From: Amycolatopsis deserti
GTDB lineage: Bacteria; Actinomycetota; Actinomycetes; Mycobacteriales; Pseudonocardiaceae
Direction of reading: 5' to 3'
DNA length: 64,000 nt
Assembly: GCF_014653945.1 (NCBI RefSeq)
Contig: NZ_BNAU01000001.1
Coordinates: 186,001 to 250,000 of the forward strand
Of this stretch, positions 3,268-22,037 are shown piece by piece. A program made the position numbers and the translations under genes. Each line of letters begins with the position of its first letter. Within the stretch, counting starts at the first letter, position 1. The notes beneath the pieces were generated by a model. It searched no databases. It was given only the letters and a program-made list of their open reading frames with translations, and was not told the origin of the DNA.

Positions 3268-3317
3268 ACACCGCACCGATCCCAGCCAACCACCGCCGCT
3301 TCGCTCGGGAGATCGTC

Positions 3318-4575
3318 ATGCCCACCGCCCTGCTGTCCATCGGCGTACTCGCCGCCGTCCTCGCCCTCGCCACCGTCCGCCCGGTCAACATGGGCGTGCT
3401 CGGGCTCGTCGCCGCGTTTTTCGTGGGCAGCCTCGTCGGCGGTGAGTCACCGGAGGACGTGCTCGCCTCGTTCCCCGCCGAGCTGTTCGTCGTGCTCGTC
3501 GGCGTCACCTACCTGTTCGCCATCGCCAAGAACAACGGCACCGTGCAGTGGCTGGTCGAGGCGACCTTCCGGCTCGCCGGAGGCCGCACGTCCGCGATCC
3601 CGTGGGTCTTCTTCCTGCTCTCGACCGTGATCTGCGGGATCGGCGCGCTGCCGCCCGCGGTGGGCGCGATCCTCATGCCGATCGCGATGAGCTTCGCTGC
3701 CGCGCACGGCCTCCGGCCGTTGCTCGTGAGCATCCTCATCGGGCTCGGATCGACCGCGGGCTCGTTCGCGCCCACCGGCCTGCTCGGCGTCATCGTGCAC
3801 CGGGTGCAGGAGGACAACGGGCTCGCGAGCGATCCGCTCCTGCTGTTCGCGTGCACCTTCGGGATCGGCACCGCCGTCGCCGTGGCCACCTACCTGCTCC
3901 TGGCCCGCCGTCCGAAGAGGACGGTGGTGAGCGCGGCGGACGGGCCGGGCGCAGCCACCGCACCGCCGAGGACCTCGCTGAGCCCGCAGCAGGGCCTGAC
4001 TCTGCTCGGTTTCGTCGTGCTGACCGCCGGGGCGCTCGTCTTCGGCCTCGACATCGGGTTCCTGGCACTGACCGTGGCGGCGGTACTGGCCCTGGCGTTC
4101 CCCGCGGCGAACCGTGGCGCCGTGAAGGAGGTCAGCTGGGACATCATCCTTTCTGATGGCGGGCATCCTGACCTACGTCGGCGTCCTCCAGCACAACGGG
4201 ACGATCGACTGGCTCGGCGCGTCGGTCGCCGGGGTCGAGTCACCGCTGCTCGCTGCGCTGCTGATCTGCCTCATCGGGGCGGTGGTGTCCGCGTTCGCGT
4301 CGACGACGGGCATCCTCGGCGCGGTCATCCCGCTCACGGTGCCGCTGATCGCGACGGGTGAGATCGGGGCGATCGGGTTCGTCGCCGCGCTGGCGATCTC
4401 CTCGTCACTGGTGGACGTGTCCCCGTTCTCGACCGGTGGTGCCATCGCGATGGCCAACGCCCCCGAGCCGGAGCGCCGCACGATCTACCGTGGGCTGCTC
4501 CGCTTCTCGGGGGCGATGGCACTCGCGGGACCCCTGCTCAGCTGGTCGCTCCTCGTCGCACCCGGGTGGTTGTGA
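3318..4575 (+). pseudogene. Carboxylate permease (MatC/SLC13-like) with a frameshift
   Basis: A dicarboxylate/tricarboxylate permease of the MatC/SLC13-like ion transporter group, with about ten hydrophobic segments. It reads in one frame from ATG 3318 to about 4150 and continues in the +1 frame to 4575. The first part ends VKEVSWDIIL and the second resumes LMAGILTYVGVLQHNGTIDW, exactly what an uninterrupted homologue would show. One extra T in the TTT run at 4150-4152 explains the break; without it the reading is about 419 residues. The rest of both halves is intact and well coded. It could be a fresh mutation, a sequencing error or, less likely, +1 frameshifting at CTT-TCT. It follows PrpD/PrpF and probably imported their substrate. 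Confidence 0.85.
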
Positions 4576-4629
4576 CTCCCGGGGGAACCGAGCGATGGTG
4601 TTGTCCCGGCGACGCCTCGTCAGAGCGAA

Positions 4630-5097
4630 TCACCCGTGCTCGCGCGCGGGCCTCTCCCAAACGTGGTACGTGAAAGCAGGTTCGAACCCACAACGCTGGT
4701 AGACCCCGGCGGACCTGCTGTCGCTCGCCCTGTCGACCAGCAACACCGAGCTCTGGACACCGGCCGCCGCGAACCGTGCCAGTGCGCTGCGGACCAGGTT
4801 CTCCGCGATTCCGGTCCGCCGGTGAGCCGGACGGGTCGCGACCACCTCGATGAAGCCGGTGGGCTGCGCTCGGCCGTCCCCGAGCTCGACGATCCGGCTC
4901 AGCAGCACGACGGCGGACTCCGTGTCCCGGAGTACGAGGAGCTGCGGGCCGCCCCCGAGATCCGTCTCGAGGCGGTCCCGCCACCGTTGGGGCGTCCACG
5001 GAATGCAGCCGCCCCAGTGTTCGGCGAACGCCTCGTTGATGATCGTGGTCCAAGCCGTGTCGTCGGCGGCGTTGTCGGGTACGCGTGCAGAGTGAGT
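4630..5097 (-). pseudogene. GNAT acetyltransferase remnant
   Basis: Reading leftward from 5097, about 156 residues resemble the second domain of a two-domain GNAT N-acetyltransferase: INEAFAEHWGG, then the acetyl-CoA loop RPAHRRTGIAENLVRSAL and the C-terminal YQRCGFEPAFTYHVWER. The frame is closed by a stop at 5098-5100, and no ATG, GTG or TTG occurs until an internal GTG at 4908, which lies inside the fold. The N-terminal domain is missing. I read this as a decayed gene, although translation of a 92-residue fragment from 4908 cannot be excluded. Confidence 0.7.
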
Positions 5098-5350
5098 TCA
5101 TCACGGTGCGGCGCCGGCTCATTGAGCGTGGAGCAGTCCATTCGTCAGAAGGGCCGCACCCTGGCAAAGCCCTGCGGATCCGCGCTCCCGCTGCCCCGGA
5201 GAGTACGAAAGGACGTCACCGGTCGCGCCCGGGGCCGCCGTTGTCCGCACCCACTCGAAGAGCGCCTCCGCGGTCTCGCGATGATCCGCGGCGGTGCGGG
5301 GGCGCACCCACGCACCGGCAGATCTGCCACCACACCGTGCCCGCGCGCGG

Positions 5351-6982
5351 TCAGAGCACGGTCAGCTCCAGCCGCGCGCCTGCGCGACCGCCGATTTCCA
5401 CTGTTTGCGTCGTCGAGCGCATCGACGTGGCGAACCACCAGCGTTCCCGCGTGCCGGTCAGGGGGATGAAGTCGGGGTAGTCGCTGCTGCACAGCATCAG
5501 CAGCAGGGAATGCCCTGGCCGCACCACGTAGCCGGCCTCGCCGACCGACATCGACACCTCGGTCGGGTCGGTGGCGGTCAGTCGTTGCTGTCCGCGGCAG
5601 ATGAACCGTGCGCTGCCGTCCGGTTCGAGATCCAGCAGGAAGGCGAACAGGTCCATCTCCGGGCCCGTGGTGGTGACGGTGCCGTGGAAGGTGACCGGGC
5701 CGGCCAGCTCCAGCGGCTCGGTCTGCGGGTCGCCGCGGAAGGTCAGCACGTCGTCGCGGTCGGCCGTCGCCCGGTAATCGGGCCATTCGGCGACCAGCAG
5801 GGACCACAGGTTCGTGGCGGTCGGCACCAGCTTGTCCGGGTCGTGCACCCACGACACCGCGGTCGCGGCGGCGTCCCGCCGCGACACCAGCTGCCCGCCC
5901 GCCAGGTGCAGCACCCGCCGGGTCGCCTCCGGCGGCGGCCACGCGCAGGTGTGCCGCACCTCGTCACTGTGTGCCAGCTGGTACTCCACCGGCGGGAGCG
6001 GCTCGACGTCCGCGTCCGCCTTGAGGTAGCGGTCGAAGAACCGCAGTTCGCCGTCGAACCACGCCCTGATCTGCTCCGGGGTGAGCAGGGGGATGTCGAT
6101 GCTGCCCTGGTGCTCCACGGCGGCCGGCCGGTCGTCGAGGCGGGTGTCGTCGTGGTCGGTTGGCCCGAGCCGCAGGTGGACCAGCGGCCGCCATGCCGGG
6201 TTCGCGATCATCGCGTGGTAGTCGCGCACGGCCTCGCCCCGGCAGTACGGGTCGAACCACCCGAGCGAGAGCAGCACGGGAACGGGCTTCGCGTCGAGCG
6301 GATGCCCCTCGGGAAAGCGGCGCAGCGGCGGCCGGGCCGACAGGTGCATGTCCATCGCCGGCGGCCGGACGCCCATCTGCTCCACCGCCTCCTCGAACGC
6401 GTTCACCAGCGGACGGCGGGACCAGTCGTAATCCTCCTCGTGCGCGAGGAGGTCGTTGACGACGTAGAAGTCCATCACGTACTTGAAGTAGAACCCCCAC
6501 TCGGGCTCGCCTGGCGTCAGCTGCGCGGCCCCGAGGTTGGTGTTCGTGGACCGCGGCGCGATCGCGCGCAGGGCCGGGTGGTTGGTGGACAACGCCGCCC
6601 ACTGCGTAAAGCCCACATAGGACAGTCCGGTCATGCCGACGCGGCCGTTGGACCACGGCTGGTTCGCGATCCAGTCGATCGTGTCGTACCCGTCGTAGGC
6701 CTCGTTGACCCAGGGGACCGTCTCGCCCTCGGAGCGGAACTTGCCGCGGGTGTCCTGCGCGACCAGCGCGTACCCCCGCTCGAGCAGCGCCTCGGCGAAG
6801 ACGTCGACGCGGATGATCTCGCCGTTCTTGTCGTACGGCAGGCGGGTCAACACCACCGGGAAGGGGCCGTCCCCCTCCGGCAGGTACACATCGGTCGCCA
6901 GCCGGACACCGTCGCGCATCCGGACCATGTATTGCTGGGCCTGGTCGCTCGGCGGGCCCGGTGGGACGTGGGTGAACTCCAT
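5351..6982 (-). CDS. CocE/NonD family hydrolase (peptidase S15)
   Basis: A 543-residue alpha/beta hydrolase of the CocE/X-Pro dipeptidyl-peptidase family, which cleaves esters or amides in the cytoplasm. The nucleophile serine is in GLSYVG near residue 120, the aspartate is probably in SLGWFD, and the histidine in LGPTDHDD. The C-terminal beta-rich domain typical of the family follows. The SD sequence AAGGAG precedes ATG 6982, only 9 bp after the permease stop, so the two form an operon. Its partner suggests that it hydrolyses an imported compound. The promoter region upstream of the permease carries the TetR-type palindromes described separately. Confidence 0.92.
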   Translation of the reverse strand: MEFTHVPPGPPSDQAQQYMVRMRDGVRLATDVYLPEGDGPFPVVLTRLPYDKNGEIIRVDVFAEALLERGYALVAQDTRGKFRSEGETVPWVNEAYDGYDTIDWIANQPWSNGRVGMTGLSYVGFTQWAALSTNHPALRAIAPRSTNTNLGAAQLTPGEPEWGFYFKYVMDFYVVNDLLAHEEDYDWSRRPLVNAFEEAVEQMGVRPPAMDMHLSARPPLRRFPEGHPLDAKPVPVLLSLGWFDPYCRGEAVRDYHAMIANPAWRPLVHLRLGPTDHDDTRLDDRPAAVEHQGSIDIPLLTPEQIRAWFDGELRFFDRYLKADADVEPLPPVEYQLAHSDEVRHTCAWPPPEATRRVLHLAGGQLVSRRDAAATAVSWVHDPDKLVPTATNLWSLLVAEWPDYRATADRDDVLTFRGDPQTEPLELAGPVTFHGTVTTTGPEMDLFAFLLDLEPDGSARFICRGQQRLTATDPTEVSMSVGEAGYVVRPGHSLLLMLCSSDYPDFIPLTGTRERWWFATSMRSTTQTVEIGGRAGARLELTVL

Positions 6983-6991
6983 CGATGCTCC

Positions 6992-8476
6992 TTACGCTTT
7001 CTGCCGCCCGATGCGGGCGTACACGCCCGGGCGCTTCGACCGGTAGACCAGAGCGAGCACCACGCCGACGGCGAGCACGCCCCAGACGATCGCTTGCTCG
7101 ACGACGGCCTGGGCGGTCGACCCGCCCGTCAACGTCGTGAAGTTCGTGATCGCCAAGTACAGCACCGTCCCCATGCCTGCTGCGCTGAGCATTGGGGCGA
7201 TCAACGTGTGCCACCGCGTCGAATCTCGGATGTCCCGCCGCCGCCGGAAGAACACGATGACGGCCAGGCTCGTCAGCGTCATCAGGACCATGATCGCGAA
7301 CCCGCCCGTTCCGGCGAGCTGGGCGTACCACAGCTCGGGCGAGCCGATCCCGCTGAACGCCAGCAGGACCGCGAACAGGACCAGGCTCACGGTCACCGAG
7401 CTGACGTGGGGCGACCCGTGCCGCGGGTGGACCTTGGCCAGCCGGGCGGGCAGCACGCGGTCGACGCCGAGCGAGTAGCAGTACCGGGAAACGATGTTCT
7501 GCACCGACAACAGCGCCGCGAACGCCGACGTCACGACCAGCACCGTCACCACGTCCCTGGCCCACACGCCCACGAAGGTCTCCACGGCGGTGGAGAACAT
7601 CCCGGTCGGATCCGCGGCCGCGGCCGCCGTCGCCTGCGACGGACCGTAGGCCGCGATGAGCAACCAGGTCGCGGCGATGTAGAAGACGCCGATCGCCCCG
7701 ACGGCCAGGTAGGTGGCGCGGGGGACCGTGCGGTGCGGGTTCTTCGTTTCCTCCCGGAAGACGGCCGTTGCCTCGAACCCGCCGAAACTCAGGGCGGAGA
7801 ACAACACCGCGACACCCACGGACCCGGACATCAGGGCGCCCCAGGTGAACGGCGTGAGCGGCACGCCCTCGGAGCCGCCGCCGTGGCCCAGGACAGCGCC
7901 GTCGAAGATGCCGACGATGACGATCTCGCACACCATGACGACGGAGAGCACCTTGGCGGAGAGGTCGATGCGGAAGTAGCCGAGCACGCCCGTGATCACC
8001 AGGACCGCGAAGGTGTAGACGAACCAGGGCAGCGTGGGCGCTCCGATCGTCTCCAGGAGGGTGTTGAGGGAGACGCCGATGAACATGTAGGTCGCGACCG
8101 CCATGAACAGGTAGCCGATGATCGCGAGGAAACTCGCGCCGAGCCCGGGCGCTCGGCCCAGTCCGGCGGTGATGTAGGCGTAGAACGCGCCTGGGTTGTC
8201 GACGTAGCGCGTCATGGTGGTGTAGCCGACGGAGAAGACGAGCAGGACGGCCATGGCGATCACGTAGGCCAGTGGGGCGCCGGTCCCGCCGAAGCTGATG
8301 ATGAACGGCGTGCTCGCCGACACCACCATGACCGGTGCCGACCACGCCAGGACCGTGAACACCAGCTCGATGACGCCCATGCGTCCCTTGAGTTTCCGGT
8401 GTGCGCCGGGAGGGGTGGGGGTTTCGGCTGCCCGCCGCAGGACCGTCGAGTCGGCGGCGTCCACTTCGTTGCTCAT
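6992..8476 (-). CDS. APC-superfamily permease 1
   Basis: A 494-residue integral membrane transporter of the amino acid-polyamine-organocation superfamily with about 12 hydrophobic segments. It shows the family blocks GVIELVFTVLAWSAP, VGYTTMTRYVDNPGAFYAYI and FGGFEATAVFREETKNP. It is a paralogue of the permease at 11270-12742: blocks such as RYxxxLGxDRxLPAxxAKVHPRH are shared. I chose ATG 8476 (MSNEVDAAD) because GAGAGGG lies just upstream; a longer reading to 8548 adds an unlikely N-terminus. The substrate is unknown. It is followed by the CocE hydrolase. Confidence 0.92.
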   Translation of the reverse strand: MSNEVDAADSTVLRRAAETPTPPGAHRKLKGRMGVIELVFTVLAWSAPVMVVSASTPFIISFGGTGAPLAYVIAMAVLLVFSVGYTTMTRYVDNPGAFYAYITAGLGRAPGLGASFLAIIGYLFMAVATYMFIGVSLNTLLETIGAPTLPWFVYTFAVLVITGVLGYFRIDLSAKVLSVVMVCEIVIVGIFDGAVLGHGGGSEGVPLTPFTWGALMSGSVGVAVLFSALSFGGFEATAVFREETKNPHRTVPRATYLAVGAIGVFYIAATWLLIAAYGPSQATAAAAADPTGMFSTAVETFVGVWARDVVTVLVVTSAFAALLSVQNIVSRYCYSLGVDRVLPARLAKVHPRHGSPHVSSVTVSLVLFAVLLAFSGIGSPELWYAQLAGTGGFAIMVLMTLTSLAVIVFFRRRRDIRDSTRWHTLIAPMLSAAGMGTVLYLAITNFTTLTGGSTAQAVVEQAIVWGVLAVGVVLALVYRSKRPGVYARIGRQKA

Positions 8477-8572
8477 CGAGAACCCTCTCGAGCGGGGAAG
8501 GAGGAAGAATTCGGTGACAGGTGCGACAGTCCGTGGTGCCGGGGACACCGCCCACGACGCTACTGAAGACGT

Positions 8573-8606
8573 GACTCGAGTCCGGTTTAGTAACGCGACT
8601 GCAGTC
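8573..8606. promoter_or_regulatory. TetR operator pair A
   Basis: Two perfect 10-bp palindromes, GACTCGAGTC (8573-8582) and GACTGCAGTC (8597-8606), lie 24 bp apart, about 100 bp upstream of permease 1. The same arrangement with the same 24-bp spacing and nearly the same intervening bases occurs at 15517-15550 upstream of the second TetR gene. The two flanking TetR paralogues have nearly identical HTH regions, so binding by one or both is inferred. Confidence 0.75.
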
Positions 8607-8651
8607 GTGTGACGGGAATGGTAGGCGACGAAGGTCGCGGGCGCTAGCCCT

Positions 8652-9314
8652 TCATCGGCCCGAGTGGCCGTCGAAGAACCGGGTGAGCATGAAGTGGGCC
8701 TGGTCGAGGATGCCTGCGTCGCCGTCCTCGTCGTCGGTGAAGGCGAACTGGACGAGCCGTTCCAGTGCGTGCAGGGCGACGCTGCAGTGCAGCTGGGTCA
8801 GCTCGCCGAACAGGGGAGCGTGCCGCTGGAACTGCTCCAGGAGGCGGCCGGCCCAGTCCTCGATGCACGCTTCGTCGAGGGCGCGGACGCGGTCGGTGAG
8901 GTTCTGCCGCACCCACAGCTCCCGGATCAGCGGGATGCGGTGCTCCTGCGTGTAGTAGTCGATCACCACGTCGACGATCTCGGTCCACCGCTTCCCGCGC
9001 CGATCGTCCAAGGCCTGCTGGAAGGTCGCGGTCGCGCCGCGCATCTGCCGGTAACACAGCTCGTCGAGCACGCTCTCGGGAGTTTCGAAGAAGGCGTAGA
9101 ACGAGCCACGGCTGACGCCTGCCTTCTCCAGCAGCAGGGTTGGTGACCCCACGACCGCTTCGTAGCCGATGTTCTCGACCAGCTCGGCCGCCGTCTTCAG
9201 GACGTGCTCGACCATCGCCCGGGAGCGTTCCTGCACGGGCTGCTTGCGCAGGCCACCGTCGAGCCGCTCGTACCACGCGGCAGGGGTTGTCCGAGAAGTC
9301 GACCGTGACACCAA
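8652..9314 (-). CDS. TetR family regulator 1
   Basis: A 220-residue TetR repressor with an N-terminal helix-turn-helix around residues 30-75 (AAELVENIGYEAVVGS, LLLEKAGVSRGSFYAFF) and a ligand-binding C-terminal domain. It is strongly similar along its length to the TetR at 15590-16258 and shares blocks such as QERSRAMVEHVL, RELWVRQNLT and LHALERLVQFAF. It is divergent from the reductase-P450 operon, and the shared upstream region holds GACT-N2-AGTC-like palindromes. It probably represses that operon and itself; the inducer is unknown. Confidence 0.93.
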   Translation of the reverse strand: MVSRSTSRTTPAAWYERLDGGLRKQPVQERSRAMVEHVLKTAAELVENIGYEAVVGSPTLLLEKAGVSRGSFYAFFETPESVLDELCYRQMRGATATFQQALDDRRGKRWTEIVDVVIDYYTQEHRIPLIRELWVRQNLTDRVRALDEACIEDWAGRLLEQFQRHAPLFGELTQLHCSVALHALERLVQFAFTDDEDGDAGILDQAHFMLTRFFDGHSGR

Positions 9315-9382
9315 CGCTCCTTAGCCTGGACACCCGCGGTGGCTTGAGAGTGTACGCGTCAATCCGGGAAATCGACCGGTGG

Positions 9383-9429
9383 ACACGACGCGAGTCGTGT
9401 ATTAGTCTACCTCGAACGCGACTGTGGTC
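9383..9429. promoter_or_regulatory. TetR operator pair B in the divergent promoter
   Basis: Between TetR 1 and the reductase gene lies an 18-bp inverted repeat, ACACGAC-N4-GTCGTGT (9383-9400), whose core GACGCGAGTC is one base from the pattern of pairs A and C. A second element, GACTGTGGTC, is at 9420-9429. The cores start 33 bp apart, instead of 24 bp at the other two sites. The location between divergent genes suits control of both. Confidence 0.65.
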
Positions 9430-9489
9430 GCGTCTCAAATCTCGATTCCAGTCAGTTCCAGCAGTCATAGCGCTACGCAAGGTGGTGGC

Positions 9490-10758
9490 ATGGTCGGAAC
9501 GCACACTTCGCAACACGTCCCCCCGGGAAGCGCGAGCCCCACCGTCGCCGTGGTGGGCAGTGGCCCGTCCGGCTGCTACGTCGCCCAGTTCCTGTCCAAG
9601 ACGTGGCCGGACTCGGAGATCACCGTCTTCGAATCGCTGCCCGCGCCCTACGGGCTCATCCGCTACGGTGTGGCGGCCGACCACCAGGGCACCAAAGGGG
9701 TGGTGCGGCAGTTCGACCGGCTGTTCACCCGCGGTGGCATCCGGTTCGCGGGCAATGTGACGGTCGGCCGGGACATCGACTTCGCCCGGCTGGCCGACAG
9801 CTTCGACATCGTCGTGCTCGCGACCGGGCTTCCCGGCGACCGCGAACTCGACGTGCCACGCGACCCGCGGGCACGGGTCGTCGGAGCGGGTGCCTTGCTG
9901 CGCGCGCTCAACGGATTTCCCCACCACGGCCTGCCCCGCACGCCGCTGGGTTCGCGGGTGCTCGTCATCGGAATGGGCAACGTCGCCCTCGACGTCCTGC
10001 GGCTGCTGTCCAAAGACACCGCGGACTTCACCGGATCGGACATCGACGACGAAATGCTCACGCAGCTGCGCCCGGAGCGGCCGGCAACGCTGGACGTCAT
10101 CGCCCGATCCGGGGCGTCCCAGGCGAAGTGCGACGCCGCGATGCTGCGCGAACTCATCGCGTTGGACGGTGTGGACATCGCCGTCTCCGGGCTGGACGAG
10201 AAGGACAGCGGCCCGGTCGCCGACCTGCTGCGGGCCGCGGCCGTCCCGGCACGGGACGAACCGGGACGCACCCGCGTGACTTTCCACTTCGGACTCGTCC
10301 CCGAATCGCTGACCACCTGCCACGGCCGGACCGTGCTGACCGCGCGCCGCCGTGACGACGGCGGGTCAGCCGAGTTCGCCGCCGACACCGTCGTCACCGC
10401 CATCGGGTTCACCCACGGCGCCGCGCACGACGACTGCTGTCCCGGCCCGGACTGGACGGGCGACCACGTCTACCGCGCGGGGTGGCTCAGCCGCGGCGCG
10501 CAGGGGACGATCGCCGAGAACCGCAAGCACGCCCAGAGCCTCGTCCGGTCCATCGTGGACGACTTCGCGGCCGGGCGGATCACGGCGGACAGGCCCGGGT
10601 TCGCCGGCGTCGCGGACCTGCTCGCCCACCGGGTGGTCGGGTTCGGTGACTGGCAGCGGATCGAGGCGGCCGAACACCGCTCGGCGCGGCCGGGCCGGTG
10701 CCGGCGCAAGATCACCGACCTCGACCAGATGCTGGCCCTCGCCACCGGCGCCCGCTGA
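9490..10758 (+). CDS. FprA-type NADPH-ferredoxin/flavodoxin reductase
   Basis: A 422-residue FAD-dependent reductase of the adrenodoxin-reductase/FprA group, which passes electrons from NADPH to a small iron-sulfur or flavin carrier. The FAD site is VAVVGSGPSGCYVAQ near residue 20, followed by PAPYGLIRYGVAADHQGTK. The NADPH site is VLVIGMGNVALDVLRLL near residue 155. ATG 9490 has the SD AAGGTGG; a GTG at 9424 would add a low-complexity extension overlapping the operator. It is the first gene of a run with flavodoxin, permease and P450, so it very probably supplies the P450 through the flavodoxin. Confidence 0.92.
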   Translation: MVGTHTSQHVPPGSASPTVAVVGSGPSGCYVAQFLSKTWPDSEITVFESLPAPYGLIRYGVAADHQGTKGVVRQFDRLFTRGGIRFAGNVTVGRDIDFARLADSFDIVVLATGLPGDRELDVPRDPRARVVGAGALLRALNGFPHHGLPRTPLGSRVLVIGMGNVALDVLRLLSKDTADFTGSDIDDEMLTQLRPERPATLDVIARSGASQAKCDAAMLRELIALDGVDIAVSGLDEKDSGPVADLLRAAAVPARDEPGRTRVTFHFGLVPESLTTCHGRTVLTARRRDDGGSAEFAADTVVTAIGFTHGAAHDDCCPGPDWTGDHVYRAGWLSRGAQGTIAENRKHAQSLVRSIVDDFAAGRITADRPGFAGVADLLAHRVVGFGDWQRIEAAEHRSARPGRCRRKITDLDQMLALATGAR

Positions 10759-10782
10759 TCCCAACCACAGGAAGGACCTTGC

Positions 10783-11238
10783 GTGAACAAGCTGACCGTC
10801 CTCTTCGGCACCGAATCCGGCAACGCCGAGCTGGTCGCCGAAGACGTCGCCGCCGCGCTCGAGGAGAACGGAACCACGGCGGAGGTGGTCGACATGCAGG
10901 ACTACCCCGTCGACGACCTCGGCGCGGAAGACCTGGTCATCCTCGTGGTGTCGACCTACGGTGAGGGCGACCTGCCCGCCACCGCCGCGCCCTTCCGCGA
11001 AGCGCTCGTGGAGAGCAAACCCGACCTTTCCGGTGTCCGGTTCGCCGCGTTCGGTCTCGGGGACAGCACCTACGAAACCTACAACCTGGGCGTCGCCACG
11101 CTGAGGTCCACTTTCACCGCACTGGGCGCGACCCAGATCGGGGAAACCGGCTACCACGACGCGGACAGCGGGCTGAACCCGTCCGACGTCGCGGTGGCCT
11201 GGGTGAACACCGTTCTCACGCTCGCCGCACCCGCTTGA
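10783..11238 (+). CDS. Flavodoxin
   Basis: A 151-residue flavodoxin-fold protein, a one-domain FMN electron carrier. The phosphate loop GTESGNAELVAED is at residues 9-21, and the isoalloxazine loops STYGEGDLP and GLGDSTYETYN follow at about 59 and 90, resembling the flavodoxin domains of cytochrome P450 reductase and MioC. The start is GTG with SD GAAGGA. It lies between the FprA-type reductase and the permease/P450. No ferredoxin gene is present, so this protein is the likely direct donor to the P450. Confidence 0.92.
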   Translation: MNKLTVLFGTESGNAELVAEDVAAALEENGTTAEVVDMQDYPVDDLGAEDLVILVVSTYGEGDLPATAAPFREALVESKPDLSGVRFAAFGLGDSTYETYNLGVATLRSTFTALGATQIGETGYHDADSGLNPSDVAVAWVNTVLTLAAPA

Positions 11239-11269
11239 CCGGACATCACCTCATCTGGAGGCACCAGAA

Positions 11270-12742
11270 ATGAGTGACAGCACGCCCGTCGCCAGCCCAC
11301 CAGCGACCACGCATCCCGCCACCGGTGCCGTGCCCGACAGGCTCTCGGGCCGGATGGGGGTCAGCTCACTGATGCTGACCGTCCTGGCCTTCTCCGCGCC
11401 CATCGCCGTCGTCGCCGGATTCATCCCGTTCACCATCACCTTCGGCGGGGAAGGCGCCACGTTCGCCTTCGTCGCGACCACCATCCTGCTGCTGCTGTTC
11501 GCGGTGGGCTACGTGACCATGACCAAGCGCATCCCGAAGCCGGGTTCCTTCTACGCGTTCGTCAGCGCCGGCCTGGGCAAGGTCAGCGGACTGGGCGCCG
11601 CATTCCTCGCGGTCGTGTCCTACCTGCTGATGCTCGGCGGGTGCTTCGTGTTCCTCGGCCTCACCGCCACGGAGCTCATCGAGAGCATCGGCGGGCCCAC
11701 GACGCCGTGGTGGCTGTGGGGCGCACTGGCCTGGGCCGTGGTCGGGGTCCTGTGTTACTTCCACATCGAGGTGTCGGCGAAGGTCCTCAGCGTCGCCATG
11801 GTCCTGGAAGTCACGATCGCCATGATCTTCAACGTGGCCGTCGTGCTGCACGGGGGTGGCCCGGACGGCTTCTCGGCCACCCCGTTCTCGCCGGCCGCGC
11901 TGTCGCACGGCGACGTCGGCGTGACGATGCTGTTCGCGGTCATGGTGTTCCTGGGATTCGAGGCCACCGCGGTATTCCGCGACGAGGTCCGCACCCCCGA
12001 CCGGACCATCCCGCGCGCCACCTACGGTGCCGTGCTGTTCGTCGGCGTCCTCTACATCCTGTCGTGCTACCTGCTCACGACCGCGTACGGCTCGGGTGCG
12101 GTGGACGCGGCGACCAACGACCCCAAGTCGATGTTCCCCGCCGCCATCGGGCAGTTCGTGGCGCCGTTCTTCACGCAGCTGACGTTCCTGTTCATCATCA
12201 CTTCCGAGCTCGCCGCGGCGATCTCGGTGCACAACGTGGTGGCCCGCTACCTGTTCAACCTCGGCCGCGACCGGGCCCTGCCCGCCTACGTCGCCAAGGT
12301 GCACCCCCGTCACCACTCGCCGGCCCGCGCTTCCACGGTCACCGCGGTGATCGTCGCCGTGATCCTGGTACCCCTCGGTCTGACCAACACCTCCGGTGTG
12401 GGGCTGGACGCCCAGCTGTTCGGGCTGGCCACCGTCGGCCTGCTGGCCCTGATGGCCGTGGTCAGCGTCTCCGTCATCGTGTGGTTCGCCCGCACCGGCA
12501 GGTCCGCCGGGGAGAACGCGGTCAAGTGCTACATCGCGCCGGGCATCGCTGCGCTGGCACTCGGCGCGACCGTGCTGCTCGCCGTCCTGCACTTCGACCT
12601 GGTGGTCGGCGGCGCGCCGGGACAGAACCTGGTGCTGCTCACCGTGCTCGCCGTCTCCGCGGTCGTCGGCGTGGGGCTCGCGCTCTACTTCAAGTCGGCG
12701 CGGCCCCGGACCTACGCCGGTCTCGGCCAGGCCGCGAGCTGA
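11270..12742 (+). CDS. APC-superfamily permease 2
   Basis: A 490-residue APC-family transporter with about 12 membrane segments, paralogous to permease 1 at 6992-8476. Shared blocks include LMLTVLAFSAP, VGYVTMTKRIPKPGSFYAF, LGFEATAVFRDEVRTP and AKVHPRHHSPARAS. The SD CTGGAGG precedes ATG 11270. Being inside the reductase-flavodoxin-P450 run, it probably imports the compound oxidised by the P450; an amino acid, amine or related small nitrogen compound would suit the family. Confidence 0.92.
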   Translation: MSDSTPVASPPATTHPATGAVPDRLSGRMGVSSLMLTVLAFSAPIAVVAGFIPFTITFGGEGATFAFVATTILLLLFAVGYVTMTKRIPKPGSFYAFVSAGLGKVSGLGAAFLAVVSYLLMLGGCFVFLGLTATELIESIGGPTTPWWLWGALAWAVVGVLCYFHIEVSAKVLSVAMVLEVTIAMIFNVAVVLHGGGPDGFSATPFSPAALSHGDVGVTMLFAVMVFLGFEATAVFRDEVRTPDRTIPRATYGAVLFVGVLYILSCYLLTTAYGSGAVDAATNDPKSMFPAAIGQFVAPFFTQLTFLFIITSELAAAISVHNVVARYLFNLGRDRALPAYVAKVHPRHHSPARASTVTAVIVAVILVPLGLTNTSGVGLDAQLFGLATVGLLALMAVVSVSVIVWFARTGRSAGENAVKCYIAPGIAALALGATVLLAVLHFDLVVGGAPGQNLVLLTVLAVSAVVGVGLALYFKSARPRTYAGLGQAAS

Positions 12743-12771
12743 TCCCACACCTACCGGAAAGGACAACGCCC

Positions 12772-13989
12772 ATGTCTACCGATACGACAGCGGTCACGGT
12801 TTCGGGGGAGTGCCCGGAGGTCACCGGCTTCCTGCCGTGGACCGACCCGCAGTTCCGGATCGACCCCTACCCGTACTACGCCCGCGCGCTGGCCGAGGCG
12901 CCGATCATGCGCGACGACCACGACGGCAGCTTCGTGCTCACCCGGTACGAGGACCTGATGCACTTCGGCCGTCTGCCCTCGGTCCGCATCGCGCCGGAAT
13001 GGGAGAAGGCCGGCGCCTGGCGCGTTCTGCTGGACATGGCCCTGGGGCACGACGAACCCGACCACACCCGGCTGCGGCGCCTGACGAGCAAGTGGTTCAC
13101 GCCCAAGCGGGTGCGCGAGTGGGCCGAGACGACCGCCACCATCACCGACCGCCTCCTCGACGGTCTCGGCCCGGACGGGCTGGTCGACGGCTCCGACCTC
13201 GCGGTGGAGGTCACGCACCGCACGGTCTGCCACATCCTGGACATCCCTGCCGAGGACCACGACGAGGTGCGCCGGAAGATGCGGCAGGCGATGCCCATCC
13301 TCAGCGCTCGTCCCACGCAGCGGGACTTCGAGCTGGCCGAGGAGGCCCTGGGCGAGCTGCGTGGCCGGACCGCCGCGCTGATCGAGGCCAAGCGAAAGAA
13401 CCCAGGGGAGGGCCTGCTGGATTCCCTGGTGGCGGCGCAGGACCGGGGCGAGATGACCGCCGCCGAGCTGCTGGCGACCACCCTGTTCTTCTACGTCGTC
13501 GGCCACATGGATGCCACCTACCTCATCTGTTCGGGGCTGCACCTGTTCACGCGGCGGCCGGACCTCTTCGACGCGTTCCGGGACAACCCGGACAAGCACG
13601 AGGCGTTCGTCGCCGAACTGGCCCGCTTCGACGCGCCCGAGCCGGTCGTGACCCGGGCGACGACCGAGGACCTGGTCATCCACGGCGTCCACGTGCCCGC
13701 CGGCCGCAGCCTGCGCCTGATGCTCGGCGCCGCCAACCACGACCCGGCGGTGTTCGACAACCCGGACGAGTTCGACTTCACCCGGCCGCCGGAGCAGACC
13801 CGGAACCTGACCTTCAGCTTCGGCAGCCACGGGTGCCAGGGACGGCTGCTCGCCGAGGCCGAGATCCGGGTGGTGTTCGAGCGGATCGCGGCCCGGTTCT
13901 CGCGCGTCGAGCTGACCGCCGAACCCGACATCCGCAACACCGACGCCTCGCGTCACTACTTCACGCTCCCGCTGCGCCTGCACAGCTGA
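12772..13989 (+). CDS. Cytochrome P450 with unusual I-helix
   Basis: A 405-residue soluble bacterial cytochrome P450. The haem-ligand motif FSFGSHGCQG places the thiolate at Cys355, and the K-helix ExxR is Glu282-Arg285. The I-helix reads VGHMDATYLI at residues 243-252: where most P450s have an acid then threonine after the AGH-like turn, this one has Met246 and Asp247, with Thr two places later. That resembles P450s doing atypical chemistry or using a different proton path. ATG 12772 follows a GGAAAGGA SD. The reductase and flavodoxin genes are 5' in the same run, with cupin and phosphotriesterase-like genes downstream. The substrate is unknown. Confidence 0.94.
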   Translation: MSTDTTAVTVSGECPEVTGFLPWTDPQFRIDPYPYYARALAEAPIMRDDHDGSFVLTRYEDLMHFGRLPSVRIAPEWEKAGAWRVLLDMALGHDEPDHTRLRRLTSKWFTPKRVREWAETTATITDRLLDGLGPDGLVDGSDLAVEVTHRTVCHILDIPAEDHDEVRRKMRQAMPILSARPTQRDFELAEEALGELRGRTAALIEAKRKNPGEGLLDSLVAAQDRGEMTAAELLATTLFFYVVGHMDATYLICSGLHLFTRRPDLFDAFRDNPDKHEAFVAELARFDAPEPVVTRATTEDLVIHGVHVPAGRSLRLMLGAANHDPAVFDNPDEFDFTRPPEQTRNLTFSFGSHGCQGRLLAEAEIRVVFERIAARFSRVELTAEPDIRNTDASRHYFTLPLRLHS

Positions 13990-14021
13990 CCGTTTCACCC
14001 CAACGAAAGGAAACACCAGCG

Positions 14022-14378
14022 ATGACACACACCTCCTCGGTGCCCACGGTGGTCCTCACCGACGCGCGCTCGGTCGAGCTGGAGGACTGGGGTCCCCTGC
14101 CCGAGGCCACCGGCGAGCCGATGCGGACCGCGGGCAAGAAGTTGTGGACCGGTGAGGGGGTACTCGAAGTCGGCCTCTGGGAGTGCGCGCCCGGGCCGTC
14201 CCGCTGGGTCTTCGAGACCAACGAATCCATCACCATGCTCGAGGGCCGCATGACCGTCACCGAGGACGGCGGCGAGTCCTACGAGATCAAGGCCGGCGAC
14301 AGCGCCGTCTTCCCGCTCGGCTGGACGGGCACGTGGGACATCCACGAAACCGTGTTCAAGGTCTACACCGCATTCTGA
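14022..14378 (+). CDS. Cupin_3 (DUF861) domain protein
   Basis: A 118-residue single-domain cupin of the DUF861 type, related to the cupin halves of ureidoglycine aminohydrolase and EutQ. The core reads LWECAPGPSRWVFETNESITMLEGRMTV as a broken motif, then AGDSAVFPLGWTGTWDIHE. The usual first-motif histidines are mostly absent, so metal binding is uncertain. The ATG has SD GAAAGGAAA, 32 bp after the P450 stop and 17 bp before the hydrolase. It may act on, or bind, a product of the P450. Confidence 0.85.
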   Translation: MTHTSSVPTVVLTDARSVELEDWGPLPEATGEPMRTAGKKLWTGEGVLEVGLWECAPGPSRWVFETNESITMLEGRMTVTEDGGESYEIKAGDSAVFPLGWTGTWDIHETVFKVYTAF

Positions 14379-14395
14379 CCACAAAGGAGTGACCG

Positions 14396-15448
14396 ATGCC
14401 GGGCACACTACGCACCGTCCGCGGGGACATCGACCCCGCCGAGATGGGCGCCACACTGCCGCATGAGCATGTCTTCGGTGCGGTGGACATGTACTGGGAC
14501 CCGGGTGAGGATCCGCGCGCCTCGCGGGACCCCGACTCCAGCCCCACACTGGAAAACCTGTGGCACTGGCGCGAGAACCCGTGCACCAACCGCGGGAACC
14601 TGCACATGGGCGACGAGAAGGACGCGATCGACGAGCTGTCGGTCCTGCCCGATCTCGGGGTCGGCACGCTGGTGAACCTGTCCCCGATCGGCATGGGACG
14701 CAACGCCGCCGGCCTGCGGTACGTCTCCGAGATGACCGGCGTGCACATCGTGGCCGGCTCGACCTACTACGTGGCGGCGAGCTGGCCCGACGAGCGCAAG
14801 TCGATGACCGAGGACCAGATGGTCTCCGAGATCGTCGGGGAGATCACGGTCGGCATGGAGGGCACCGACGTGCGGGCGGGCATCGTCGGTGAGGTCGGCC
14901 TGTCCTGGCCGATCGACCCGCTGGAGGAGCGGGCGCTGGCCGCGAGCGTGCGGGCGCACCGGCAGACCGGTGCGGCGCTGTCCATCCACAACCCCTACTA
15001 CGTGCCCGGGGCCGACACGCTGCTCGAGATCGGCCGCCGCATCGCCGGTCTCGGGGCCGACATGAGCCGGGTGATCATGGGACATTGCGACGGGTTCTCG
15101 CGCGATCCGCGGTTCCTCGACGTGGTCGCGGAGCTCGGCTGCTACGTCGAGCTCGACCTGTTCGGCTACCCGAGCGGGTACGAGCCGGAGGTGGATTTCG
15201 TCTACCCGTCGGACGAGCTGCGGGTGGACACCATCCTCAACCTCATCGAGGCCGGCCTCGCCGACCGGCTGCTGCTGTCCCACGACATCTGCTTCAAGAC
15301 GAGCAGGCAGAAGTTCGGCGGGAACGGCTACGGCTACATCCACCGTGTGATCGTCCCGTGGCTGAAGCGCAAGGGCGTCGACGACGACGTCCTGGTGCAG
15401 ATCCTGGTCCGCAACGCGCAGACGGTGCTGCCGCTGGCCGCGGTCTGA
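14396..15448 (+). CDS. Phosphotriesterase-like amidohydrolase/lactonase
   Basis: A 350-residue member of the phosphotriesterase family (amidohydrolase superfamily, TIM barrel, two metals). The metal ligands visible are HEH near residues 23-25, a glutamate in GEVGLSW in place of the usual carboxylated lysine, histidines in SIHNPYY and MGHCDGF, and an aspartate in LLSHDICFK. Glu in the bridging position is typical of the lactonase/PHP side of the family. A lactone or ester made after P450 oxidation is a plausible substrate, but that is inference. It is the last gene of the run and is followed by a strong terminator. Confidence 0.9.
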   Translation: MPGTLRTVRGDIDPAEMGATLPHEHVFGAVDMYWDPGEDPRASRDPDSSPTLENLWHWRENPCTNRGNLHMGDEKDAIDELSVLPDLGVGTLVNLSPIGMGRNAAGLRYVSEMTGVHIVAGSTYYVAASWPDERKSMTEDQMVSEIVGEITVGMEGTDVRAGIVGEVGLSWPIDPLEERALAASVRAHRQTGAALSIHNPYYVPGADTLLEIGRRIAGLGADMSRVIMGHCDGFSRDPRFLDVVAELGCYVELDLFGYPSGYEPEVDFVYPSDELRVDTILNLIEAGLADRLLLSHDICFKTSRQKFGGNGYGYIHRVIVPWLKRKGVDDDVLVQILVRNAQTVLPLAAV

Positions 15449-15460
15449 TCGCGAGCGCAC

Positions 15461-15495
15461 GAGACGGCCCCCGGCTGCCGGCCGGGGGCCGTCTC
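15461..15495 (+). terminator. Rho-independent-like terminator
   Basis: A perfect 15-bp stem (GAGACGGCCCCCGGC paired with its complement) and a 5-base loop begins 13 bp after the hydrolase stop. It is followed by TCATT rather than a long T run, as is common in high-GC actinomycetes. It separates the P450 operon from TetR 2. Confidence 0.85.
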
Positions 15496-15516
15496 TCATT
15501 CCAGCACGCGAAACGT

Positions 15517-15550
15517 GACCAGAGTCCAGGTTGGTAACGCGACTGGAGTC
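15517..15550. promoter_or_regulatory. TetR operator pair C
   Basis: GACCAGAGTC (15517-15526) and GACTGGAGTC (15541-15550) lie 24 bp apart upstream of TetR 2. The surrounding 44 bp match site A closely, including the shared GTAACGC before and GTCGTGT after the second palindrome. Confidence 0.75.
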
Positions 15551-15559
15551 GTGTAACGT
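15531..15559 (+). promoter_or_regulatory. Promoter of TetR 2
   Basis: TTGGTA (15531-15536) and TAACGT (15554-15559) are separated by 17 bp and make a good sigma-70-type promoter. The second palindrome of operator C occupies the spacer, so a bound TetR protein would block RNA polymerase. This indicates autoregulation of TetR 2 or cross-repression by TetR 1. Confidence 0.6.
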
Positions 15560-15589
15560 GGTCGTAACAGGCGGAACGGGGGAGTACCG

Positions 15590-16258
15590 ATGAGACGGAC
15601 CGCGTACCGGAGCAGATCCGGCCCACGTGCCCCGATCACGGGCGGACTGCGCAAGCTGCCGGTTCAGGAGCGGTCCCGCGCCATGGTCGAGCACGTGCTG
15701 GACACGGCGACGGACCTGGTCAGGAACCTCGGTTACGAGGCGGTTGTGGGTTCACCGACCCTGCTGCTGGAGAAGGCGGGTGTCAGCCGTGGCTCGTTCT
15801 ACGCCTTCTTCGAGTCCCCGGAACGGGTGCTTGAAGAGCTGTGCCACCGCCAGATGCAGGCTTCGACCGACGGGCTCGCGCGGGCGCTGAAGGACCGGCC
15901 CGGCGAGACGTGGACCGAGATCGTCGACGTCCTGATCGACTACTACACGCGGGAACACCGCACGCCGCTGGTCCGAGAGCTGTGGGTGCGGCAGAACCTG
16001 ACCGAGCGCGTCCGCGCCCTCGACGAGCTGTGCATCGAGGACTGGGCCGCCCGCGTGCTGGAGCAGTTCCGCCAGCACGCCCCGGCCTTCGACGAGCTCA
16101 CCCAGGCCCACTGCAGCGTCGCCCTGCACGCGCTGGAACGGCTCGTCCAGTTCGCCTTCGCCGGCGACGAGGACGGCGATCCCGCCGTCCTCGCCCAGGC
16201 CCACTTCATGCTCACGCGGTTCTTCGCGGGCCACGCCGGTGTCAGCCCGCCGTGCTGA
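15590..16258 (+). CDS. TetR family regulator 2
   Basis: A 222-residue TetR repressor, paralogue of the one at 8652-9314, with the HTH residues GYEAVVGS and LLLEKAGVSRGSFYAFF the same in both. The similarity continues through the ligand domain, so the two may also sense related ligands. ATG 15590 is preceded by GGGGGAG. Its 3' end overlaps the convergent aldehyde dehydrogenase by 17 bp. It probably recognises the GACT-N2-AGTC sites at A, B and C. Confidence 0.93.
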   Translation: MRRTAYRSRSGPRAPITGGLRKLPVQERSRAMVEHVLDTATDLVRNLGYEAVVGSPTLLLEKAGVSRGSFYAFFESPERVLEELCHRQMQASTDGLARALKDRPGETWTEIVDVLIDYYTREHRTPLVRELWVRQNLTERVRALDELCIEDWAARVLEQFRQHAPAFDELTQAHCSVALHALERLVQFAFAGDEDGDPAVLAQAHFMLTRFFAGHAGVSPPC

Positions 16259-17603
16259 AGAAGACGTTCTTCACCTCGGTGTAGGCGTCGAGCGCGTCCG
16301 GGCCCAGTTCGCGGCCGAGACCGGACTGCTTGAACCCGCCGAAGGGCGTGGTGATCCGGACCGACGTGTAGGAGTTGACCGCCAGGGCGCCGGCGTCGAC
16401 GGCACGCGCGACCCGCAGGGACCGCGCTGCGTCCGACGTCCAGATCGACCCGGCCAGCCCGTACACCGTGTCGTTGGCGCGGGCCAGCGCCTCCTCCTCG
16501 CTGTCGAAGGCGAACACCGACACGACCGGGCCGAAGATCTCCTCCCGCGCCGCCGGGTGCCGGTCGTCGATCGGGTGCAGCACCATGGGGGGAACCCAGT
16601 AACCGGGCCCGTCCGGCGCGGTGCCGCGGAAGAGCACTGGCGCACCGTCCACGTAGCCCCGGACGCGGGCCGCTTGTCCGGCCGAGACGAGCGGGCCCAT
16701 CTGGGTGCTCTCGTCCAGCGGGTCGCCGACCACGATCCCGCCGACGACCTTCTCCAGCTTCGCCAGGAACGTCTCCAATGCTGGCCGCTCGACGAACACG
16801 CGGGAGCGCGCGCAACAGTCCTGCCCGGAGTTGCCGAAGACGGCGCCGGTCAGCCCGCTCGCCGCGGCGTCGAGATCGGCGTCGGCGAACACCAGCGCGG
16901 CCGACTTGCCGCCCAGCTCCAGCGTGACACGCTTGAGGGTGCCGGCCGCGCGCTGGGCGATGTCCTTGCCGACCTCGGTGGAGCCGGTGAACGCGATCTT
17001 GCCGATGCCCCGGTGCTCGACCATCGCGCGGCCGAGCGTGCGGCCCGGGCCGACCAGCACCGTCAGCAGGCCCTCCGGCAGACCGGCCGCGGTCGCGATC
17101 GCGGCGAGCTCGCGGGCGGTGAGCGGGGTCAGCTCCGCGGGTTTGAGCACGATCGCGTTGCCCGCCGCCAGGCCGGGCGCGACCTTCCAGGACGCGATGG
17201 TGAGCGGGTAGTTCCACGGGGTGATCAGCCCGACGACGCCGATCGGTTCCCGGAACGTCATGTCCACGCCGCCCTCGACGGGAATGGTGTGTCCCAGCAG
17301 GCGTTCCGGCGCCGCGGCGTAGTAGCGGAAGGTCGCGGCCGCGCCCGCGACGGCGCCGCGGGCCTCGGTGATCGGCATCCCGACGTTGCGGGATTCCAGC
17401 CGCGCCAGGCGTTCGGAGTTCGCCTCGATCGCCGCCGCGACCGCGAGCAGGACCTGCCCGCGGTACTGCGGCGACCGCGCGGCCCACAGCTTCTGCGCCT
17501 TGGCGGCACGCGCGACGATGGCGTCCAGTTCGGCTACGTCGGTGGTTTCGAGGGTGTCGAGCACGCTCTCGGTGGCGGGCTCGATCACGTCGACGGTGGT
17601 CAC
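16242..17603 (-). CDS. Aldehyde dehydrogenase
   Basis: A 453-residue NAD(P)-dependent aldehyde dehydrogenase. Seen are the catalytic-pocket Asn in TPWNYP, the glycine motif FTGSTEVG, the general base in LELGGKSA and the nucleophile region GNSGQDCCARSR. The C-terminal FGGFKQSGLGRELG is typical of betaine-aldehyde and gamma-glutamyl-aminobutyraldehyde dehydrogenases. The start is GTG 17603 with SD AGGGAGGA, and it overlaps the stop of the glutamine-amidotransferase-like gene (GTGA). Together with that gene and the aminotransferase it fits oxidation of an aminoaldehyde, perhaps gamma-glutamylated. Confidence 0.93.
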   Translation of the reverse strand: MTTVDVIEPATESVLDTLETTDVAELDAIVARAAKAQKLWAARSPQYRGQVLLAVAAAIEANSERLARLESRNVGMPITEARGAVAGAAATFRYYAAAPERLLGHTIPVEGGVDMTFREPIGVVGLITPWNYPLTIASWKVAPGLAAGNAIVLKPAELTPLTARELAAIATAAGLPEGLLTVLVGPGRTLGRAMVEHRGIGKIAFTGSTEVGKDIAQRAAGTLKRVTLELGGKSAALVFADADLDAAASGLTGAVFGNSGQDCCARSRVFVERPALETFLAKLEKVVGGIVVGDPLDESTQMGPLVSAGQAARVRGYVDGAPVLFRGTAPDGPGYWVPPMVLHPIDDRHPAAREEIFGPVVSVFAFDSEEEALARANDTVYGLAGSIWTSDAARSLRVARAVDAGALAVNSYTSVRITTPFGGFKQSGLGRELGPDALDAYTEVKNVFFSTAG

Positions 17604-19720: not shown

Positions 19721-19765
19721 CGGCTCACTCCTCGTGCTCGGATTATTGGAGCGGTTGACACTCCT

Positions 19766-19795
19766 TTTGTAGTCGAGCGCCGCGCCTGCCGTCAA
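19766..19795 (-). promoter_or_regulatory. Promoter of the aminotransferase operon
   Basis: On the minus strand TTGACG (19790-19795) and TACAAA (19766-19771) are 18 bp apart, about 46 bp before the aminotransferase start. The region between this gene and the divergent ligase gene is unusually AT-rich for the window. Confidence 0.5.
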
Positions 19796-19874
19796 GCAAT
19801 CGTTGCAGTGACGGGTAGCGTCTGTTAGAAAAAAGGTCCTTGAGGAAATCCATTAGGGAAGTCGAGGGATCACC

Positions 19875-21176: not shown

Positions 21177-21249
21177 GGCGCGGGCTGGGAAACGGGTGCT
21201 TGCTAACATGGCCAGGTGAGCGGTGTCCCTGGGCGAGGGAGCGGGGCTG

Positions 21250-22029: not shown

Positions 22030-22037
22030 CCCCCGGC

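Follow-up and report, generated by a model that had tools for sequence, protein, structure and literature searches.

XplA and XplB destroy the man-made explosive RDX, and the role that they had before RDX is, to our knowledge, unsettled. The question is raised again by a putative catabolic gene cluster of Amycolatopsis deserti, found in a 64 kb stretch (contig NZ_BNAU01000001.1, nt 186,001–250,000; hereafter the window, with positions counted from its first letter) of the 7.74 Mb host genome. The original prediction, made from the letters alone, described nt 5351–16,258 as an island with a cytochrome P450, a flavodoxin and a reductase, and did not recognise these three as relatives of XplA and XplB. 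Judged by sequence, the P450, the flavodoxin and the flavin adenine dinucleotide (FAD) reductase together make up a relative of XplA/XplB in unfused form, and they stand in a conserved setting with a permease of the APC family (APC2) and genes for a predicted gamma-glutamyl type of amine catabolism (Table 1).

The P450 and Its Electron Donors

Identity to the DN22 xpl genes is 45% for the P450, 56% for the flavodoxin (to the flavodoxin domain of XplA) and 43% for the reductase (to XplB, which part of PMC10820124 calls adrenodoxin-reductase-like). The best solved relatives of the P450 by sequence are XplA (372 bits) and the SscaCYP protein of Streptomyces scabiei (8q5j, 312 bits), the next reaching 151 bits. 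An AlphaFold2 model of the P450 (mean predicted local distance difference test score, 84.9) returned the three XplA entries 4ep6, 2wiv and 2wiy at the top (Template Modeling scores of 0.90–0.94), with SscaCYP fourth. The flavodoxin is the sole such match in the whole genome at E ≤ 0.001, and the proposal of uptake followed by oxidation through a P450 with a dedicated flavodoxin donor is supported as a prediction.

The species-genome collection was scanned with an alignment of nine P450s and the best 80 loci were taken. When 28 clade members were placed in a tree with 8 of 76 other P450s, XplA fell inside the clade with 100/100 support, and an earlier tree (18 and 16 sequences) agrees, again at 100/100. 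The ten orthologous P450s described below, that of the window included, form a 100/100 group within the clade. XplA itself groups with 13 other clade members (94/85), and a Streptomyces pair and the P450 of locus L134 lie near the base of the clade, support for the branching order being weak there (84/70). Matches to both the reductase and the flavodoxin were present in the stretch compared at 23 of the 27 clade loci, and APC or amino-acid permease genes at 22 (the permease of L011 taken from its annotation).

In the window the flavodoxin and P450 are separate genes with APC2 between them. A single flavodoxin-P450 frame was seen at five of the 12 loci examined: L011 (XplA itself), L015, L025, L132 and L133. 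The last four form one subclade, the nearest relatives of which (L022 and L027) are unfused, so that by parsimony the fusion arose at least twice.

Several members of the clade have settings of their own. The conjugative Klebsiella pneumoniae plasmid pM63-1 (L016) carries a full unfused reductase-flavodoxin-P450 set accompanied by genes for an APC permease and a TetR protein, and four further enterobacterial plasmid matches were among the matches listed. In Poseidonocella (L024; nt 8759–11,170 of the locus) two clade P450s stand in tandem, accompanied by a flavodoxin, an aminotransferase and two APC permeases, and a second flavodoxin with a reductase lies at nt 19,238–20,981. Locus L131 has two divergent clade P450s, which are separated by about 7 kb and each adjoin a separate APC permease, and one of them (GHMD, 51% identity to XplA) is among the closest XplA relatives found.

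Active-Site Residues and a Possible Origin of XplA

Residues were compared across 104 aligned P450s, these being the 28 clade members and the 76 others (three of the 80 scan loci, L044, L095 and L100, failed the filters and were left out). The 76 are not a random sample: 69 are the next nearest collection matches, many of them similar Streptomyces proteins, and seven come from the window's genome (of 29 further matches); L004 and L005, overlapping loci of that genome, may be one gene counted twice. At the acid–alcohol position 73 of the 76 have ET or EA, the remaining three showing GT, AT and GS, and every one of the 28 clade members lacks the pair (MD in 11, PN in nine, HN in four, LD in three and MA in XplA). 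In the I-helix the window P450 and XplA have GHM in common and both carry Met in place of the acid; the Thr of the pair is replaced in the window P450 by Asp, at the position of XplA Ala395 (Met394, Ala395 and Gln438 are numbered from the 552-residue DN22 XplA). The position of Gln438 is occupied by Glu in 27 of the 28 clade members and by Gln in XplA alone, while among the 76 other P450s Glu does not occur and Gln occurs once. SscaCYP, which stands outside this residue count, shows LD and Glu in the alignment. Since Gln438 needs only one change on the tree, parsimony makes Glu the older state. Gln438 reportedly lies above the haem in the 2009 XplA structure paper, and replacing it is said to lower RDX activity; our search of the open-licence literature found nothing on Gln438 and nothing relevant on SscaCYP. 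Taken with the amine/amino-acid-type permeases at most clade loci, the lineage-wide Glu points to a cationic substrate.

The altered I-helix also invites another reading, in which the window P450 would act reductively, like XplA, on a nitro or nitramine compound instead of oxidising an amine. Both proteins have lost the acid–alcohol pair; PMC8081977 describes the loss of the acid–threonine motif in XplA and holds that such loss favours reduction in air. The pair is, however, missing from all 28 clade members, most of which are encoded near amine or amino-acid permeases, and the XplA-specific residues Ala395 and Gln438 are not present in the window P450, so we regard a reductive role as highly improbable.

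For the origin of XplA we give an even chance to the following proposal. XplA would come from a scattered, unnamed and mostly flavodoxin-dependent P450 lineage that oxidises cationic amines imported by APC permeases, and the island and its nine orthologues would represent the unfused, ancestor-like condition. XplA would then have lost the Glu (now Gln438) and the Asp or Asn (now Ala395), admitting a neutral cyclic nitramine, with fusion to the flavodoxin at least twice in the lineage. A natural group of XplA relatives can now be named that has a conserved genetic setting and differs from XplA at two specific active-site positions; amines are its likely substrate class, and the pre-RDX function of XplA/XplB becomes a matter of simple enzyme assays. 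Our search, confined to the open-licence literature, showed no description of a natural group of XplA relatives or of a unit joining a P450, a flavodoxin and gamma-glutamyl genes.

Conservation of the Cluster

Nine core genes (reductase, flavodoxin, APC2, P450, cupin, aldehyde dehydrogenase (ALDH), PuuD-like hydrolase, aminotransferase and glutamine synthetase (GS)-like ligase) occur together at all ten orthologous loci, five of the Amycolatopsis type and five of a second family of the order. Far from being separate in all relatives, the genes of the block are kept together at each locus. The loci were found via the P450, and the aminotransferase half was sought independently only in the genus. 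The locus of A. orientalis DSM 43388, which carries the island, was added by the collection scan. The GntR regulator is present at all nine testable loci, the window included (the L019 stretch stops short of its position), a TetR relative stands beside the reductase at nine of the ten and elsewhere in L128, and ALDH relatives of 73–95% identity are found at the nine other loci. The two halves are arranged in a different order in each family, so their linkage is more than the inertia of one arrangement.

Within the genus the P450 was matched at E ≤ 1e-60 in four of 19 genomes, the window's own included, and the aminotransferase at E ≤ 1e-150 in exactly those four, a co-occurrence with a chance of 1 in 3876 if the two were independent (kinship is not corrected for in this figure). 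The phosphotriesterase (PTE)-like protein occurs in the same four genomes and, at 39% identity, in one more. Further afield the P450 is rare: it was matched at E ≤ 1e-80 in three of the 249 genomes of the family sample (again counting the window's own), and the phylum sample of 396 genomes gave no match at E ≤ 1e-70 besides the window's own genome. The second family of the order (381 genomes) returned ten matches at E ≤ 1e-58, five of them orthologous at 63–71% identity. One genome in these comparisons, G644, has an estimated contamination of 7%.

A TetR-controlled P450 detoxification operon might have come by chance to lie beside a GntR-controlled operon for polyamine or amino-acid catabolism, and the separate regulators of the two halves, with the best-matching palindromes (11 of 12 positions; see below) confined to the left one, would fit such an accident. 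The halves are nevertheless linked at all ten of these P450-selected loci from two families despite their rearranged order, and at the thresholds used P450 and aminotransferase were never found one without the other in the 19 genus genomes, which makes unrelated neighbours very unlikely. We lean instead towards the island being one inducible amine-catabolic unit of about 8.6–22.0 kb, with APC1 and the CocE-type hydrolase as an optional extension.

Candidate Regulatory Sequences

The original prediction had placed palindromes upstream of each transcription unit. Exact copies do stand upstream of APC1 and TetR2; the sites upstream of the reductase, 33 bp apart between TetR1 and the reductase gene, proved imperfect, though a site at this place is conserved in relatives. 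The exact form GACTNNAGTC occurs three times in the 64 kb (nt 8573, 8597 and 15,541), always in the cluster, where 0.79 copies are expected and two of 100 shuffled sequences reach three. The longer consensus ACGACTNNAGTCGT is matched at 11 or more of its 12 positions at only three places in the window (nt 8595, 9385 and 15,539), all in intergenic regions of the cluster; in 40 Markov simulations such matches averaged 0.175 and never exceeded one. As the consensus was derived from the window, the matches in the window itself are partly circular and those at other loci are not. At 9 or more of 12 positions it is found upstream of the reductase at all ten orthologous loci, in stretches of 181–601 bases; the window holds nine such matches in its 64 kb, a density that predicts about 0.5 for the ten stretches combined (3,520 bases). 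A TetR2-upstream site at the same threshold is present at four of the five Amycolatopsis-type loci, and in L018 a site (10 of 12) also lies upstream of APC1.

Paired operators over a promoter are a usual layout for TetR repressors. From the conservation of the palindrome we infer that common TetR control, as originally proposed, is probable: the two TetR paralogues, acting on paired palindromes, would repress the P450 operon, TetR2 and APC1-CocE, and the GntR protein would probably control the ligase half.

The Predicted Gamma-Glutamyl Half and a Proposed Pathway

The original gene list ended at nt 16,258 and missed the second half of the unit, which continues to about nt 22,030 and defines the type of pathway. 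Ligase, ALDH, gamma-glutamyl hydrolase and aminotransferase are encoded together at all ten orthologous loci (families assigned by Pfam). The GS-like ligase scores well below the NCBIfam cut-offs for true GlnA, is without FDGSS and has Phe in place of the flap Glu (PGYFAP, against PGFEAP in two GlnA proteins of the window's genome); the GS-like proteins of L126, L128 and L130 are likewise without FDGSS and have Phe at the flap position. GoaS enzymes, which ligate organic amines to glutamate, are reported in PMC11335346 to have lost Asp50 of GS (FDGSS) and Glu-flap residues. On the loss of these residues, the gene is predicted to encode a GoaS-like gamma-glutamyl amide ligase. Most GoaS have an extra N-terminal loop (the 15th motif); in a GS alignment without GoaS references, extra residues of the window ligase stand next to the lost FDGSS. 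A role in ordinary ammonium assimilation was considered and rejected, since these motifs are lost and three other GlnA proteins in the genome score above the family cut-off.

From the gene families, their joint conservation, the P450 clade and its active-site residues we infer a general scheme, somewhat favoured over its competitors taken together, in which the P450 oxidises an amine and the carbon is carried as a gamma-glutamyl amide; this judgement embraces the two versions weighed below. APC2 would import the amine, and electrons from NADPH would pass through the XplB-like reductase and the dedicated flavodoxin to the P450, which would oxidise a carbon of the amine. The ligase would make a gamma-glutamyl amide carrying the P450 product, ALDH would oxidise the aldehyde of this amide, the PuuD-like hydrolase would free glutamate and an omega-amino acid, and the aminotransferase would take off the nitrogen. 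The most economical substrate would be a saturated cyclic secondary amine of the pyrrolidine or piperidine type, since its ring would open directly to an amino-aldehyde upon alpha-hydroxylation, making an alcohol dehydrogenase unnecessary; the conserved core has none. Ring-opening oxidation of such an amine would account for every core gene except the cupin, and RDX, a six-membered saturated nitrogen ring, would then not be far from the shape of the natural substrate. The earlier pointer to amines as the likely substrate class is supported, and the cyclic version taken alone is less likely than not. A conserved P450-based gamma-glutamyl amine gene set is thereby described for the Actinomycetota.

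The order of the steps could be different. Isopropylamine degradation in Pseudomonas KIE171 (Ipu) reportedly uses the same guild of GS-like protein, P450, amide hydrolase, ALDH and permease; an Ipu-like route here would have the ligase act first on a short alkylamine, the P450 hydroxylate the alkyl end of the amide, ALDH complete the oxidation and PuuD free the amino acid. The paper on isopropylamine degradation is cited as a GoaS example in PMC11335346. In a gamma-glutamyl amide, the free ammonium could be bound by the clade Glu. In a core without an alcohol dehydrogenase the P450 would, however, have to oxidise twice, and clade relatives without GS-like genes nearby have the same Glu; we consider this order unlikely.

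P450s commonly dealkylate amines, and a second version follows from this: acting on a substituted amine or alkaloid, the P450 would take off a methyl or alkyl group and leave a primary amine to enter the gamma-glutamyl route. The Streptomyces clade locus L013 has annotated folate one-carbon genes and an aminomethyltransferase nearby, and the optional CocE would fit an ester alkaloid. N-dealkylation is nonetheless distinctly unlikely, as the conserved core is without a formaldehyde or one-carbon gene, and none was recognised by eye, without a profile search, in the starts of open reading frames (ORFs) from parts of L126–L131.

Several observations weigh against the general scheme of P450 oxidation and gamma-glutamyl carriage. 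It assigns no role to the cupin, the PTE-like protein or CocE. The PTE-like protein shows at least 63% identity at six of the ten orthologous loci and only 33–34% at three, and its gene is missing from the L128 stretches. Neither the PuuD-like hydrolase nor the ligase reaches its closest NCBIfam cut-offs, among them the one for gamma-glutamylputrescine synthetase. The ligase half is served by a separate regulator (GntR) and contains no 11-of-12 palindrome in the window scan, and L021 has no TetR2-upstream site at 9 or more of 12 positions. At four clade loci (L013, L014, L023 and L028) no reductase or flavodoxin match was found in the stretch compared, a ferredoxin gene being annotated beside the P450 in L013. 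Among the 17 clade loci beyond the orthologous ten (the L022 and L025 stretches being short or truncated), a GS-like gene lies nearby in three (L012, L013 and L023), PuuD in two (L013 and L023) and an aminotransferase in one (L024); gamma-glutamylation therefore does not characterise the clade as a whole.

Two of these loci, L013 and L023, are from Streptomyces and have GS-like, PuuD and ALDH genes. An aromatic-ring dioxygenase is annotated in L013 alongside the folate one-carbon genes, hinting at an aromatic or N-methyl amine as substrate.

Comparison with Known Systems

XplA (CYP177A1) and XplB use the same three-part electron chain as the island. The flavodoxin of XplA is fused to the P450 and that of the island is a separate gene; Ala395 and Gln438 of XplA correspond to Asp and Glu in the island P450; and the island is set among predicted gamma-glutamyl amine genes. 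The xpl cluster on plasmid pGKT2 of Gordonia KTR9 (published gene names glnA-xplB, cyp151C and xplR) has an FCD-type regulator, a flavodoxin-P450 and a GS-like protein fused in frame to XplB, and within 9 kb gave no APC, PuuD or aminotransferase match. The recurrence of a GS-like protein with XplB is suggestive and common descent is not proven; the KTR9 GS is only 28–31% identical to that of the window, which is a further point against our scheme. We also considered whether a single operon gave rise to both the window GS and the GS-XplB pair of KTR9, which is not supported at that identity.

In mycobacterial pip/mor clusters, which serve the use of piperidine, pyrrolidine and morpholine, the neighbours of a CYP151 P450 gene reportedly include genes for a GS-like protein and a regulator of the GntR type. 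These clusters differ from the island in having a ferredoxin partner and a P450 of a different family. The window P450 does not appear to be a CYP151, as it is about 25% identical to Cyp151C, the second pGKT2 P450 and the sole CYP151 reference compared. The ligase, ALDH, amide hydrolase and aminotransferase of the island are presumably counterparts of PuuA, PuuC, PuuD and PuuE; the Puu pathway, in which putrescine is gamma-glutamylated, has an amine oxidase where the island has the P450 and flavodoxin. The core proteins are all of known families, and the logic of the pathway resembles that of Puu and Ipu.

Gene Content and Accessory Genes

The ten genes originally listed between nt 5351 and 16,258 were confirmed in position and family by the ORF list and profile searches. 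Of the two pairs described as duplicated, the TetR pair consists of close paralogues (76% over 213 amino acids), whereas APC1 and APC2, at 46%, are old paralogues and not a recent pair. The TetR genes do not enclose the set either, as CocE and APC1 (nt 5351–8548) lie outside TetR1.

Table 1. Genes and candidate operator sites of the Amycolatopsis deserti cluster (window positions).
Feature	Position (nt)	Strand	Evidence and remarks
CocE/NonD-family serine hydrolase, accessory	5351–6982	-	TIGR00976, 292 bits; best solved relative, cocaine esterase
APC-family permease 1 (APC1), accessory	6992–8548	-	Pfam AA_permease_2; downstream of TetR-type sites
Pair of GACTNNAGTC palindromes upstream of APC1-CocE, 24 bp apart	8573–8606		Exact copies at 8573 and 8597
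TetR-family regulator 1 (TetR1)	8652–9314	-	TetR_C_22/TetR_C_15
Two imperfect palindromes upstream of reductase	9385–9431		GACGCGAGTC at 9387 and GACTGTGGTC at 9420, flanking a TATTAG -10-like element
FAD reductase, adrenodoxin-reductase/FprA type, XplB-like	9490–10,758	+	Best solved relatives, FprA and adrenodoxin reductase; start (ATG 9490) set by inspection
Flavodoxin, MioC type	10,783–11,238	+	Flavodoxin_1
APC-family permease 2 (APC2), core	11,270–12,742	+	Pfam; 69–94% relatives at the nine other orthologous loci
Cytochrome P450, XplA clade	12,772–13,989	+	45% to XplA; structure matches; residues; tree
EutQ-like cupin	14,022–14,378	+	Cupin_3, 2.3e-22; at ten of ten orthologous loci
PTE-family metallohydrolase, PTER closest	14,396–15,448	+	PF02126, 224 bits; best solved relative, 9efa (PTE-related protein)
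Pair of palindromes upstream of TetR2, 24 bp apart	15,517–15,550		15,517 imperfect, 15,541 exact
TetR-family regulator 2 (TetR2), TetR1 paralogue	15,590–16,258	+	Pfam; 76% to TetR1
Aldehyde dehydrogenase (ALDH), beyond the originally noted interval	16,242–17,603	-	Pfam Aldedh, 526 bits; overlaps the end of TetR2
PuuD-like gamma-glutamyl-amide hydrolase (Peptidase C26)	17,600–18,340	-	PF07722, 201 bits; NF008471, 106 bits (cut-off 266)
Class III aminotransferase	18,347–19,795	-	Aminotran_3, 309 bits; true start may be an ATG near 19,720
GS-like gamma-glutamyl amide ligase, predicted GoaS-like	19,875–21,176	+	Gln-synt_C, 251 bits
GntR/FCD-type regulator	21,223–22,029	+	FCD and GntR domains

CocE carried some weight in the pathway as first proposed, and is missing from eight of the ten orthologous loci; as the centre of the pathway it was rejected, being present at two. 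An APC1 orthologue (94%) was found at the equivalent place in one genome only (G162, locus L018). The closest solved relatives of the PTE-like protein are PTE-related proteins (PTER), and an alignment to 9efa indicates that its metal ligands are kept. PTER is described in part of PMC11374699 as an N-acetyltaurine hydrolase with R204, R233 and H300 as substrate contacts. Read from the 9efa alignment, these positions hold Tyr, Gly and Cys in the window protein; N-acetyltaurine hydrolysis was rejected as its function, and taurine amides in general are unlikely substrates.

A PrpD/MmgE-like gene left of the island (nt 773–2128, +) also adjoins the island in genome G187 (L019, nt 4906–6240; 80% identity), where APC1 and CocE are missing, which suggests a gain or loss of APC1-CocE at that spot. 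Two genes in this comparison may be disrupted. The GntR gene of L128 (nt 4497–5256) was matched in two frames overlapping by a few bases and may be frameshifted. In the window, a transporter-like membrane gene (nt 2856–4575, +) is spread over two overlapping frames (nt 2856–4361 and 4156–4575) in a frameshift-like pattern, and is either a pseudogene or the product of a sequencing error.

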